Virus record (IMG/VR): IMGVR_UViG_3300017786_000158
Coordinates: 1-22,809 of that record
DNA: 22,809 nucleotides
DNA from: a virus
Direction: 5' to 3' (one strand)
Below are positions 10,232 to 19,556 of this stretch, piece after piece. Both the position numbers and the translations under genes were made by a program. The notes under the pieces were generated by a model. It saw only the letters and a list, made by a program, of their open reading frames with translations, was not told where the DNA came from and made no database searches. The number at the start of each line of letters is the position of its first letter. Within the stretch, counting starts at the first letter, position 1.

Positions 10232-12190
10232 CTACACAGAATAGGCGTAAACTTTTTGTTTATTATTAAAATTAGTAGCAGATACTTTTAACTCAGTACC
10301 TTTTTCAGCATACTTTTCAAAAGCCATCCTCATTCCCTGTACTTCTTTTTTTAGTGCATCTTGATTAGATCCTATACTTACTGATGGGGATGATAAGGTT
10401 GTTGATGACGTAGAAGTATTAATTACTCCACCAGCTAACCCAATTGCTCCTCCAATTAAAGCACCAGGAGCTCCTCCTATTAAAGCCCCTGTTCCTGCAC
10501 CTACTAAAGCACCGCTTAAAGCAGGAGAAATACTATTTATCCCTTGTATAATTTTTCCTACAAGTTCTAAAGCTCCCCCTAAAATATCTAATATAGGGGT
10601 AAAAGCAGATACTACATCAACTAAAACTGATTTTAATTTTTCAACAGATTTGGTAAATTTATCTTGTAAAGTTTGAGCTTCTAATCTATCTGCTAATTCA
10701 TTTTTACCTAATGCTCTTAATTCTTTAGCTGTTTTACCTTGAACTTCTTGTTTAAATAAAATGTCAGCTAACTGATCTGATTGTAATCCTAGAGCGGATG
10801 CTAAAGCATCCTGTTGAATTACATTTAATTTTGTAAATGTTCCAAAATCTTGAGCATTTTTAGATAATTCAGCCGCTAATGTAGATTGGTCTCCTGTTAA
10901 AGCTGCTAATCTAGCTCTTTCTAAACTAAGATTTCTACCTAAAAGTAATTCGGCTTCTAATTCGTTTCTAATAGAAGATTCAAAATCTAATAATGCTTTA
11001 GAAGCTCCTACAATATCATCTAATTCGGCACCAAATAATTTAGCCTGAGTAACTGCTGCTGCGATTGCTGATGGGTTTGCCCCTAAATTAGCTCTTACTT
11101 GACCTGTAACCTGGCCTACAGCTTCTAGTATTTCTTTATTTGAGAATTGTACTCCTGTTTGACGCTGCAATTCATAGGAAGTAGCTAAAATAGTTTTATA
11201 TTCATCTTCGAGTAGATTACCTCGAATTTCTGCGGCTGCAGTTAAATTAGCAGTTGATTGTTCAGTTAATCCTACTACATCTAATAATCTAGTAGCGGTA
11301 ACTAAATTTTGGGAATTAAATTTACCTTGAAACCCTAATTCTTTATTTATAGCATTAAAGGTTTTTAATAATGCTGTCGTTGTAACATTTATATTGCCTG
11401 AGGATGCGGCTGCTTCAGCTAATTCTGCTCTAAAACCTATAGCTTCAATTTTACTTAAAGCTAAATTACGTTGAACCTCAACTAATTCTTTATCCGCTTG
11501 ACCTAAAGCCATAAGTATTTCAAGACCAATTAATGGTTTAAATGCTGTTCTAATAGCAGGACCTAACTTTTTAAGTCCTCCTAAAAATACATTATTAGTT
11601 TTATTATTTAACTTATTATTTAAAGCAATTTGTCTAGATTCATCAGCAGCTTCTTTAAAAGGCTCTGAAAATACTTTTAAACCTGGGATACTTTTTGTTA
11701 GATCTTCTAACCCAGCAAAAGCTTTTACATTAAAATTATTAGATATTTCTTTAGATGTATCCTCAAGATTTTTAAAAGTACCTAATAATTTATTAGAAGA
11801 ACTAATTTGTGCATCAATTTGATCTTGAATTTCTTTTTCTAGTTCAATTTCCCCATTCAAAGCTTTAGCTTTTATATCTTCTAAAATGAGGATATCTTTT
11901 TTAACTTTAGCTCTATTTTTATCTAAATTATCTAAAAACTTTTGGGTACCTAATTCCTCTTGTAAAACAGAAGTAGTTGCTTCTGCAATAGATTGGAGTT
12001 CTCTACTAATTTTTCTAAGGGTTGTTTTTTCGGCTATTTGGAAGTTTAATAGCTTAATTTGATCATTTATAACATTATTAGTATCACGAATTTCTTGGGC
12101 TATATTTTTTTCAACCCCAAGAAGTTTTTTAGCTAGATCTAAAGATTCTCTCTCTAGGTCAACCTGTTTTTTCTTATCTTCGTTTGCCAT
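10232..12190 (-). CDS. Tail tape-measure protein (gp29 equivalent)
   Basis: Sets tail length and sits inside the tube until DNA ejection. 652 aa (T4 gp29 is 590), largely helical. Residues 1-170 are heptad-rich with many Lys/Glu/Leu/Ile, compatible with coiled coils. The middle is Ala/Leu-rich helices. A Gly/Ala-rich hydrophobic segment near residues 560-590 (SGALVGAGTGALIGGAPGAL and onward) resembles the glycine-zipper hydrophobic regions seen in many tape-measure proteins. It follows the predicted assembly-chaperone pair and precedes baseplate genes, the standard place for this gene. It has its own late-type motif 15 nt upstream of the ATG. Sequence similarity to T4 gp29 is not visible to me; assignment rests on size, composition and order. 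Confidence 0.7.
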   Translation of the reverse strand: MANEDKKKQVDLERESLDLAKKLLGVEKNIAQEIRDTNNVINDQIKLLNFQIAEKTTLRKISRELQSIAEATTSVLQEELGTQKFLDNLDKNRAKVKKDILILEDIKAKALNGEIELEKEIQDQIDAQISSSNKLLGTFKNLEDTSKEISNNFNVKAFAGLEDLTKSIPGLKVFSEPFKEAADESRQIALNNKLNNKTNNVFLGGLKKLGPAIRTAFKPLIGLEILMALGQADKELVEVQRNLALSKIEAIGFRAELAEAAASSGNINVTTTALLKTFNAINKELGFQGKFNSQNLVTATRLLDVVGLTEQSTANLTAAAEIRGNLLEDEYKTILATSYELQRQTGVQFSNKEILEAVGQVTGQVRANLGANPSAIAAAVTQAKLFGAELDDIVGASKALLDFESSIRNELEAELLLGRNLSLERARLAALTGDQSTLAAELSKNAQDFGTFTKLNVIQQDALASALGLQSDQLADILFKQEVQGKTAKELRALGKNELADRLEAQTLQDKFTKSVEKLKSVLVDVVSAFTPILDILGGALELVGKIIQGINSISPALSGALVGAGTGALIGGAPGALIGGAIGLAGGVINTSTSSTTLSSPSVSIGSNQDALKKEVQGMRMAFEKYAEKGTELKVSATNFNNKQKVYAYSV

Positions 12191-12230: not shown

Positions 12231-12575
12231 TTATTTATATGACACTTTAGAGGTACCTTCAGAAGCTTTTTTAAAGTTAGGGACATTTATGGAACCATCA
12301 GGGTTTACTAAAGTACTAGTTTTATCTGATTTATTATCTGGTTTATTAGATTCCTCATGATATTTTTTAATTTCAGAAAATGTAAATTTCCTTAACCAAA
12401 TAGGCATATTGTATACATCAGGCCAAGAATATCCACCATTACCATGAAATACTACTTGGTGGATTTGTTGAAAAAGATTAAACCTATAATCTTTAGCCTG
12501 TTGCGATGTCAGGATAAAAAAAGCTGACACCAATTGGGATGGATCTTTTTTTTTCGCTTCCGGAGGGAAAAAAAG
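12231..12575 (-). CDS. Second tail assembly chaperone frame, probably made by frameshift
   Basis: Open frame with no ATG before the Met in YNMPIW, about 40 residues into the conserved-looking part. The only early initiators are TTG (12533) or GTG (12530). All other complete genes in the window start with ATG. The frame is open back to a TAA at 12576-12578 and overlaps the end of the gp26-like gene, where A9 and T7 runs occur. A +1 or -2 shift from the upstream gene would enter it, adding about 104 residues. From the TTG the product would be 100 aa; it contains an aromatic-rich segment, GGYSWPDVYNMPIWLRKF, and a polar Lys/Ser tail. Paired overlapping frames directly upstream of the tape measure are the hallmark of tail assembly chaperones (lambda G/GT). 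Coordinates give the whole open frame; the true start depends on the mechanism. Confidence 0.6.
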   Translation of the reverse strand, partial: LFFPPEAKKKDPSQLVSAFFILTSQQAKDYRFNLFQQIHQVVFHGNGGYSWPDVYNMPIWLRKFTFSEIKKYHEESNKPDNKSDKTSTLVNPDGSINVPNFKKASEGTSKVSYK

Positions 12576-13230
12576 TTAGATCTATGTCTGGTTGCAAATT
12601 TCGGATATGTTCTCTTAGTGCCCTGGCATCCTGGGCTAAGAGGTAGTTATCTACAAACTCTCGAATAGTTTTCTTTTCCCTATCTCCGTTTACAGAGGTA
12701 ATTAAATATTTTAAACGAGTGGATATTTCAGGAGAAAAATCTTTATTTAATCTTTTTAATCCTTCAAGTTCAGTAGAAATTTTCTTTTCATCCCCCTGAG
12801 TAAGTAGTTTAAATGTAATGAGGTTTTCTGAGTTGGGTAGAGTAAATTGGAATTCGTTATTCCCTTTAGTAATGTTTGATTCGTCAAATTCTTTAAATCC
12901 TATCTGGGATAAGTCAATTTCATATTCTTCTCCATTATATTCAAATTTGTAATTTTTTCCATACCCTAAAACACGGGCAGATACCATTAAAGCATTTTTA
13001 TCCCCAATTAATAAATCATTAAAATTAATTTTAGTAATTATTAAAGATTCTAATAATTTATCTATAACAGTACCTTTTTCGATATAAGATTGGTTAGTTA
13101 AAATATCCTCTTCCTTAGCAGTCATGTATTTAATTTCAACTTTTCCTTCGGATAAAGGACTTTCCTTAGAATACAATAATCCTTTTGAGGGTAATTCTAC
13201 TACTTCAGTAGGTAATTTAAATTCGGCCAT
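12493..13230 (-). CDS. 26: gp26-like protein, probable tail assembly chaperone
   Basis: 245 aa with the pattern of the T4 gp26 family (208 aa in T4): an N-terminal LPTEVVELPSKGLLY, then GKVEIKYMTAKEEDIL, a central beta region (YKFEYNGEEYEIDLS), and a C-terminal helical segment ending IREFVDNYLLAQDARALREH. gp26 was once listed as a baseplate hub component, and a chaperone role for gp26-type proteins is plausible. Its position between tube gp19 and the tape measure matches the tail assembly chaperone slot of other long-tailed phages. The 3' end contains A7, T9 and A7 runs on the plus strand (12568-12574, 12546-12554, 12516-12522) and overlaps the next frame by 83 bp when counted to that frame's upstream stop. 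A terminator and late motif lie just upstream. Confidence 0.7.
   Translation of the reverse strand: MAEFKLPTEVVELPSKGLLYSKESPLSEGKVEIKYMTAKEEDILTNQSYIEKGTVIDKLLESLIITKINFNDLLIGDKNALMVSARVLGYGKNYKFEYNGEEYEIDLSQIGFKEFDESNITKGNNEFQFTLPNSENLITFKLLTQGDEKKISTELEGLKRLNKDFSPEISTRLKYLITSVNGDREKKTIREFVDNYLLAQDARALREHIRNLQPDIDLTFFPSGSEKKRSIPIGVSFFYPDIATG
12546..12554 (-). other. A9 run, candidate programmed frameshift site
   Basis: In gene direction, nine A residues sit in the frame-0 codons GAA AAA AAA AGA of the gp26-like gene. A -1 slip here reaches TGA after about a dozen codons, whereas a +1 or -2 slip enters the downstream 100-aa frame. Two T7 runs (12568-12574 and 12516-12522) are alternative sites in the same overlap. 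Mu-like phages are known to use -2 and lambda -1 frameshifting for this gene pair. Confidence 0.5.
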
Positions 13231-13332: not shown

Positions 13333-13821
13333 TTAAAAGTTTAGTACACAGTAATCTGGTTGTACTGTCATTGTAATTTGTTGAGCAGCTGATTCATTAT
13401 CATAGCTATACTCACCAAAGTTTGCAGTTGTAATCATTGCTCCTTTGATAATCCATTCAGATACTACATCACCTACAGGACCTAATACATTGAAGGTTAA
13501 ATCCTTTTTATAGAAGTCAGAGTAACCGTTTCTACCAGTTACTGATTCATGGTGTAAACGAATCCATTCCATTACAGCTTGAGCTCCTGAAGGGGTGATT
13601 GGATCAAATAATGTAAAATCAATTGTTCCCCAGTTAGTTTTACCTTTTACATATCTTTTAAGATTGATGTGGTTTAATGCTACTGTTTCTTGTGTAATAG
13701 AAATACCACTTACACCTTTAACGATATACGAAGGGAAACCATCTATGTACATTACAAACCTATTTTGTTGTTTAGGTTCAAATGCTGTAAAGAACATTTC
13801 GTTAGTATCTAATATTGCCAT
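13333..13821 (-). CDS. 19: Tail tube protein gp19
   Basis: Forms the inner tube of the contractile tail. 162 aa, almost the T4 length (163). Hallmarks are an N-terminal FEPKQQNRFVMYIDGFPSYI, then VKGVSGISI, a LNHINLKRYVKGKTNWGTID strand pair, AVMEWIRLHH, and a C-terminal Asn/aromatic segment ending in VQPDYCVLNF. This gene follows the sheath gene, as in T4. Its own late motif lies 17 nt upstream and a strong terminator follows, consistent with the large amounts needed. Confidence 0.93.
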   Translation of the reverse strand: MAILDTNEMFFTAFEPKQQNRFVMYIDGFPSYIVKGVSGISITQETVALNHINLKRYVKGKTNWGTIDFTLFDPITPSGAQAVMEWIRLHHESVTGRNGYSDFYKKDLTFNVLGPVGDVVSEWIIKGAMITTANFGEYSYDNESAAQQITMTVQPDYCVLNF

Positions 13822-18713: not shown

Positions 18714-19556
18714 TTATCCAGTAGGTGTTGGAGTAGGAGTACTAGTAGGTGTTGGAGTAGGGGTAGGTGCACCAGTAAATACCATAAGATATTTAGAATT
18801 ACCAGAACTACCTGATAACCATAAAGATCCTACTGTAGAAGGTTCTGTAGTAGATAATCCACTAAAGATTACATCAGATCCAGAAATATGGAATGACCCA
18901 CTTGAATCAAATGTTACTGCCTCAATTGAACCACTAGCTGCTAAGGCTGTTGCAGCAGTTGTAGCGTTTGATACCACTCCAATTACGTTTGAACCTGTTA
19001 CGAATGAAGCTGTTGCAGCAGTTGTAGCGTTTGATACCACTCCAATTACGTTTGAACCTGTTACGAATGAAGCTGTTGCAGCATTTGTTGCATCGGATAC
19101 AATTCCTGCTACGTTTGAACCTGTTACGAATGAAGCAGTGTTTGATGATTCAGCTAAATCAGCAAATTCTACGTGTGAAGCCGATACTGCGTAAGAAGCA
19201 GAAGTGGCGTTTGCAGCGTCATCAGCAAATTCTACATGTGAAGCAGATACGGCATAAGAAGCGCTTGTTGCACTACCAGCATCATCAGCAAATTCTACAT
19301 GAGATGCGCTTACAGCATAAGAAGCAGAAGTTGCATCATCTGCAAATTCAACATGAGAGGCTGATACAGCATAAGAGGCACTTGAAATAGTGTTTGTGTA
19401 AGATGTGCCATCTCCTAACTGAAATGTTTGGGTTATCCCATCAATAGTAGATCCAGTAACTGAGGATCCAGTTGCACTTGATAGGGTTGAAAGGTTACCA
19501 TCCATTTCGGTATAAGTAAGAGCAGATCCTTTTTTTAATCTGTAAACTAATCCCAT
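18714..19556 (-). CDS. Repeat-rich fibre or whisker (fibritin-position) protein
   Basis: 280-aa probable virion appendage. N-terminus MGLVYRLKKGSALTYTEMDG is a start common to many small phage fibre-like proteins. Then come four copies of ASYAVSASHVEFAD (residues 60-73, 78-91, 99-112, 120-133) and three of TASFVTGSNVxGxVS (about 140-194), giving a beta-repeat or trimeric stalk-like region. A module LSTTEPSTVGSLWLSG near 235-249 resembles a short element widespread in phage virion proteins. The protein ends in a Pro/Thr tail (PTPTPTPTSTPTPTPT). In T4 the gene directly before 13 is wac (fibritin, collar whiskers), so a whisker role is suggested by position; a tail or neck fibre is the alternative. 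It has its own promoter motif and terminator. Confidence 0.6.
   Translation of the reverse strand: MGLVYRLKKGSALTYTEMDGNLSTLSSATGSSVTGSTIDGITQTFQLGDGTSYTNTISSASYAVSASHVEFADDATSASYAVSASHVEFADDAGSATSASYAVSASHVEFADDAANATSASYAVSASHVEFADLAESSNTASFVTGSNVAGIVSDATNAATASFVTGSNVIGVVSNATTAATASFVTGSNVIGVVSNATTAATALAASGSIEAVTFDSSGSFHISGSDVIFSGLSTTEPSTVGSLWLSGSSGNSKYLMVFTGAPTPTPTPTSTPTPTPTG
18720..18772 (-). repeat. Short repeats encoding a Pro/Thr tail
   Basis: A run of near-identical 12- to 24-base units on the plus strand (GTAGGTGTTGGAGTAGG-type) encodes about 16 alternating Pro and Thr residues at the extreme C-terminus. Simple repeats like this are prone to length change. Confidence 0.75.
18946..19134 (-). 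repeat. Tandem 63-bp repeat, two perfect copies and one diverged
   Basis: 18946-19008 and 19009-19071 are identical over 63 bp; 19072-19134 is a third, diverged copy. Each unit encodes 21 residues including TASFVTGSNVIGVV. Exact identity of two units indicates recent in-frame duplication. Confidence 0.9.
19150..19380 (-). repeat. Four diverged repeats encoding ASYAVSASHVEFAD
   Basis: Four units of 54-63 bp with the same peptide but drifting codons and linker lengths, so older than the adjacent 63-bp duplication. Conservation of the peptide despite codon drift indicates selection on the protein. Confidence 0.8.

Follow-up and report, generated by a model that had tools for sequence, protein, structure and literature searches.

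Ribosomes shifting by +1 at a run of T near the end of a T4 gp26-like gene very probably produce the long form of a tail assembly chaperone of the PF12322 family in the phage considered here, as predicted from comparison of related sequences. The observed overlap of the gp26-like gene with the following reading frame, and the relation between the two frames, are not due to chance, since the frame relation is identical in 151 of 151 core relatives and in 280 of 304 loci of a wider set, and the codons of the site are more fixed than 61 other conserved columns. Beyond these observations, we infer that the fusion is translated, that the slip is in the +1 direction, and that the product has a role in tail assembly. 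Frameshifted tail chaperones in general and T4-like chaperone genes are already known; what appears to be new is that a candidate +1 site is conserved and widespread within the T4 gp26 family, some members of which have passed naturally to two genes, as in T4, or to a domain gene that stands alone.

The locus and its reading frames

The window, that is, the whole stretch of 22,809 nt that was analysed, is a fragment of a marine phage genome (IMG/VR record IMGVR_UViG_3300017786_000158). On its minus strand lie, in this order, the capsid, sheath and tube genes, the gp26-like gene, the second frame, a large putative tape measure gene, and baseplate genes. The features of interest are as follows.

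13333–13821, minus strand: tail tube gene just upstream (PHROG 4542 tail tube, 8e-29)
12493–13230, minus strand: gp26-like gene, predicted short form of the tail assembly chaperone, 245 aa, ATG start, TAA stop at 12495–12493
12568–12574, minus strand: first T7 run, outside the conserved signal, missing in many relatives (e.g., L013, L039, L050)
12546–12554, minus strand: A9 run, interrupted already in L004, a relative with 98% identity
12516–12522, minus strand: predicted slip site, T7 run in AGC TTT TTT TAT CCT, with UUU_U at both Phe codons
12231–12515, minus strand: downstream frame (T-like C-terminal domain) reached by a +1 shift, TAA stop at 12233–12231
12234–13230, minus strand: predicted fusion (long form), 332 aa if the shift is +1, translated with one base skipped and aligned with 14 relatives
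10232–12190, minus strand: putative tape measure gene just downstream, 652 aa, so named by position and length, its counterpart in Flavobacterium phage immuto being annotated as tail tape measure

The gp26-like gene ends in AGC TTT TTT TAT CCT GAC ATC GCA ACA GGC TAA. The second frame (100 codons) opens upstream of the slip site and overlaps the gene at 12493–12533, in the +1 (equally –2) register; it contains no ATG, the first possible starts being TTG and GTG. The preliminary description of the window had pointed to such a frame before the tape measure gene, lacking ATG and overlapping the 3' end of the gp26-like gene, and rereading of the ORF and the site bears this out. It was also right that a –1 slip would end soon, as TGA is met at once after a –1 shift at the second T7 run. 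The expected fusion of about 330 aa agrees with the 332 aa obtained via +1, but the 104 codons assigned to its downstream part become about 94 after the two Phe residues. All three runs listed there (T7, A9, T7) are present, but only the second T7 is general in relatives, the first T7 and A9 being no part of the signal.

The assignment of the first gene to PF12322 (T4_baseplate, the T4 gp26 family) yields 25.7 bits for the window protein, only just over the curated Pfam cut-off of 24.5, and 61–100 bits for proteins of the relatives SP-15, Atu_ph07 and L187, the last being a WOR-3 locus that contains N runs and looks chimeric, its host label being left out of use. The gp26-like protein also matches PHROG 150, ‘baseplate hub’ (1.7e-10). 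No convincing family match of its own was found in Pfam and PHROG for the 652-aa product of the downstream gene. Elsewhere in the window, 18714–19556 (minus strand) encodes a protein, probably structural or a fibre, that has SASYAVSASHVEFADDA-type repeats in tandem and TPTPTPT at its C-terminus.

Conservation of the overlap and of the candidate slip site

The core set consists of 80 IMG/VR relatives (62–100% identity; 79 of them reach the stop codon) and 80 sequences around Microcystis phage Mel-JY01 (43–59%), together with isolate genomes and MAG contigs, and amounts to 151 distinct sequences; the wider set of 304 dereplicated loci comes from DNA scans for site variants. Alignment of relatives, proposed in the preliminary description as a check, gives the same frame relation throughout the core set wherever the sequence is long enough, with the second T7 general. 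Among the 304 loci, the domain is found at +1 in 280, in the same frame as a separate gene in 5, and 19 have no nearby match to the domain model. The second frame also stands at +1 in Bacillus phage SP-15 (TTT TTT CAC), Listeria phage LIS04 (TTT TTT AGT), Streptococcus GXN1 (TTC TTT CGT) and an Erysipelotrichaceae MAG (TTT TTT CGT).

In the core set, the second frame has stop codons 2–8 codons before the T7 run, and the residues from the run onwards are F (151/151), F (151/151), G (138/151, 91%) and L (151/151). With residue conservation beginning exactly at T7, and stops just before it, the reading frames therefore change exactly there. The codons are constrained as well: TTT TTT is present at the site in 144 of the 151 core relatives, both Phe codons are always TTT when Phe is encoded, and the next Pro is always CCT (dominance 1.0). 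For comparison, the share of TTT at five other conserved Phe columns is 50–87%, and codon dominance over the 61 other conserved columns has a mean of 0.65 and a maximum of 0.95. The preference for CCT and GAC is explained by dual coding, as TTT GGC CTN ACN reads FGLT in the second frame.

Homopolymers are error-prone, and a sequencing or assembly error in the run could have split one gene; the probability of this is negligible, as the same frame relation recurs in hundreds of independent contigs and in the isolates immuto, Mel-JY01, SP-15 and LIS04, and is kept at sites that have no homopolymer. Slippage of RNA polymerase at T7, altering the length of the mRNA and yielding the fusion without a ribosomal shift, would be in line with the seven-T homopolymer of most relatives. 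It is nevertheless extremely improbable, given that the frame relation is the same with TTC TTT T (four T), TTT CTT T (three T) or T6, which are too short.

Translation of the second frame as a separate gene, from a TTG or GTG start or by re-initiation within gp26 and with no fusion, is very unlikely. Both start codons are available in the window frame, LR756508 has an ATG in the overlap, and a minority of relatives carry a stand-alone ATG-started gene. Against this, no ATG, GTG or TTG lies between the upstream stop and the fifteenth codon of the domain in 85 of the 280 distinct relatives, and in 82 the open stretch ahead of the T run is shorter than five codons; moreover, an SD-like sequence precedes only 1 of 70 ATGs there in the core set. 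Because of these two observations, separate initiation of the second frame cannot be general, as judged from the start codons available. It would also leave unaccounted for both the frozen TTT TTT TGG CCT and its loss in the stand-alone relatives.

These relatives without the overlap are of two kinds. A stand-alone ATG-started domain gene occurs in 11 loci (L213, L254, L320, L236, L301, L313, L277, L223, L291, L280 and L262). In L209, L210 and L248, a short gp26 gene is accompanied by a second gene in which the gp26 domain continues into the T domain without a change of frame; such a long gene is also present in L235. At the position of the site, these 14 loci have TTC TTC or TTC TTT followed by TGG and, in 13 of them, by CCA, CCC or CCG. 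Within the TTC-first scan, to which both comparisons are confined, CCT is found in 33 of 35 frameshift relatives and in 1 of the 14 non-overlap loci (Fisher p = 5e-9, uncorrected for shared ancestry), and the second TTT, in 33 of 35 and 5 of 14, respectively (Fisher p = 4e-5, likewise uncorrected for shared ancestry). As these counts differ so, the motif tracks the overlap and is lost without it. The unbroken long genes have the junctions ..INRSFFGLTPNY.. (L235/L248) and ..DQNFFRMNGSYK.. (L210), and, by their sequences, indicate that the gp26–T fusion is a real type of gene product in the PF12322 family.

Relatives with an ATG-started second gene or an unbroken long gene, named in the preliminary description as the kind that would speak against a frameshift, are thus found, but only in a minority of loci, and these no longer carry the slip codons. 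The proposal of a gp26 fusion made by a shift in the manner of lambda G/GT has withstood this comparison and is supported.

As side observations, several of the T-domain genes of L223, L236, L262, L280 and L313 come after what is probably a terminator hairpin, located immediately past the stop codon of gp26, and the arrangement in L209, L210, L235 and L248 (a short gene and a paralogous long one) resembles that of T4 genes 26 and 51 outside the classical T4 relatives.

Direction of the predicted slip

In the proposed mechanism, a few ribosomes with peptidyl-tRNA-Phe on UUU, followed by U, would slip one base forward at UUU_UUU_U, and in some relatives the slip would occur on UUU_C or CUU_U. 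The shifted ribosomes would read the +1 frame, adding a helical domain to the gp26-like protein, which itself would be the short form, and so giving rise to the long form.

The same fusion might be reached by a Mu-like –2 slip, with tRNA-Phe re-pairing two bases back and TTT being reread (..FFFGL..), a reading for which Mu provides a precedent (PMC5009743) and which we consider unlikely. To distinguish the two, a site was taken to fit +1 if the P-site codon is TTT or CTT and the next base is T or C, and to fit –2 if the codon two bases upstream is able to pair. The 280 sites fit +1 in 278 cases and –2 in 243; 35 sites, mainly TTC TTT TGG but also that of GXN1, do not allow the –2 pairing and fit +1 only, and there is no site that fits –2 only. 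At the window site –2 re-pairing is possible, and TTT TTT A of LIS04 is perfect for it. Two loci with TTT TTC TGG (L448 and L449) would allow +1 at the first TTT. The site is CTT TGG, an RF2-type CUU_U, in immuto and L040, and in L267 and L298 (TTC TTC TGG CCT) neither slip fits at the usual place. UUU_Ynn has been described as especially prone to +1 shifts in bacteria even without a 3' stop codon, and CUU_U as the RF2 site (PMC5009743). Finally, the junctions of the natural in-frame long genes (..FFGLTP..) have the length of the +1 product and lack the extra Phe of the –2 product.

Thus, the +1 direction appears clearly favoured over –2, because 35 sites admit +1 only and none –2 only, because of the record of UUU_Ynn, and because of the length of the in-frame junctions. 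The preliminary description had left the direction as +1 or –2: the frame stands, and of the two directions +1 is more likely than the Mu-type –2.

The strongest point in favour of –2 is that T is invariant at bases 2 and 3 of the first Phe codon in the 151 core sequences, TTC making up 20% of gp26 Phe codons elsewhere; the first Phe codon is never TTC in the core clade, though a +1 shift at the second TTT would not need that. The invariant T of this clade may reflect two overlapping UUU_U chances, or –2 may be used there. A –2 slip deduced from the core T at codon position 3 alone was overturned by the wider DNA scan, which yielded TTC TTT TGG relatives with the same frame relation.

For a +1 shift at this site no stimulator was apparent: folding of the 60 bases downstream of the site is at the shuffled mean (z –0.1), and SD-like sequences upstream of it are near background (0–7%). 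As neither search revealed a stimulator, the frameshift efficiency may be low.

Function and relation to known systems

The gp26 part and the T domain were modelled separately. With the AlphaFold model of gp26 (pLDDT 89.8), Foldseek finds baseplate hub proteins of the gp26 type, among them that of SP-15; in the PDB, the first match is the HK97 tail assembly chaperone 2ob9, which is not significant (E 1.2, probability 0.33). The added T domain is predicted to consist of three helices; this model has no Foldseek match in the PDB, and profiles of gp26 and of the T domain, searched against PDB sequences, gave nothing relevant. Tail assembly chaperone is the best functional reading, predicted by analogy and resting on the location, the short/long logic, and the prior identification of T4-like tail assembly chaperones. 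T4 gp26 and gp51 have been named tail assembly chaperones and, as summarised in PMC10885494, are said not to frameshift (Vladimirov, Gautam and Davidson, 2022; pmid 34826709); the same work is cited for T4-like tail assembly chaperones in PMC10885494, PMC12846349 and PMC13222765. Hence the extension of the G/GT logic to the T4-like gp26 family, suggested in the preliminary description, stands, but gp26 as a tail assembly chaperone had already been named earlier.

As in lambda gpG/gpGT, the gp26-like gene and the second frame sit between the tail tube and the putative tape measure genes, where G/GT-type pairs do, the predicted long form carries a C-terminal domain from the overlapping frame, and the conserved candidate slip site lies near the end of the first frame. 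Unlike lambda, where the slip is –1, here the +1 frame would be entered at UUU_U, and the short form belongs to PF12322. If the lambda G/GT model applies, the tape measure protein might carry a coat of mostly short and a few long copies, in which the added domain might recruit the tail tube subunit.

Frameshifted tail chaperones are known in all three directions, T4 being listed as an exception among long-tailed phages for G/GT-type frameshifting (PMC5009743). The locus resembles the Mu –2 pair in that the second frame is in the +1/–2 register of a contractile-tailed phage, but the site variants here favour +1, and 35 of 280 sites cannot shift –2. In its direction the predicted shift is similar to the +1 tail frameshift of the archaeal myovirus HSTV-2 (PMC5009743) and to that of RF2 (prfB), whose CUU_U occurs here in immuto and L040; unlike in these systems, no internal Shine-Dalgarno or stop codon stimulator was found. 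For the Pakpunavirus Adele and Vandenendeviridae, too, sequence comparison supports frameshifting at a poly-T site of a myovirus chaperone gene (PMC12846349); there the shift is –1 with GTTTTT, compared to the predicted +1 here.

Both T4 gp26 and gp51 match PF12322, and the extra C-terminal stretch of gp51-type proteins aligns weakly with the T domain described here (one comparison, E 0.004, probability 8.6%). In T4 the short and long proteins are encoded by two genes on opposite strands, whereas here there is one gene and a predicted frameshift: we find one gp26-type gene each in the window record (a fragment), immuto, Mel-JY01, SP-15 and LIS04, and two in T4.

The conserved candidate +1 shift in the chaperone family of T4, seen in Flavobacterium, Microcystis and Bacillus phages and many uncultured viruses, suggests that the two-gene state of T4 is derived. 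It is conceivable, though we would rate it somewhat below an even chance, that T4 gp26/gp51 come from a single +1-frameshift gene on a bare UUU_UUU_U, and that the family has switched among four solutions: a +1 shift, a –1 shift (as in jumbo phages), a separate gene for the domain, and, as in T4, a duplicated gene for the long form. UUU_UUU_U without an apparent stimulator would be an unusually simple +1 site. Annotation is corrected as well: that of immuto and SP-15 overlooks the predicted long form and has a truncated ‘hypothetical protein’ in its place downstream.

DUF6760 (PF20546), a family without an assigned function, may represent the C-terminal domain of tail chaperones. Its profile has weak matches to 5 of 28 T domains (best 3.3e-5); its match to the second frame of the window (12231–12533) is weak and below the cut-off, and two phage genomes searched with PF20546 gave no matches.

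Other frame relations are seen in more distant members. In the jumbo phages Atu_ph07 (L171), XacN1 (L172) and Cassandra (L174), which are members of PF12322, and in contig L169, the domain lies at –1, with T TTT TTC or T TTT TTT, the frames being read from the sequence by eye, without a domain model; annotation of the downstream frame is absent or incomplete. A contractile-tail-like cluster in a Deltaproteobacteria MAG with a GC-rich genome (L192) has a gp26-like gene and a –1 downstream frame near a run of C6.
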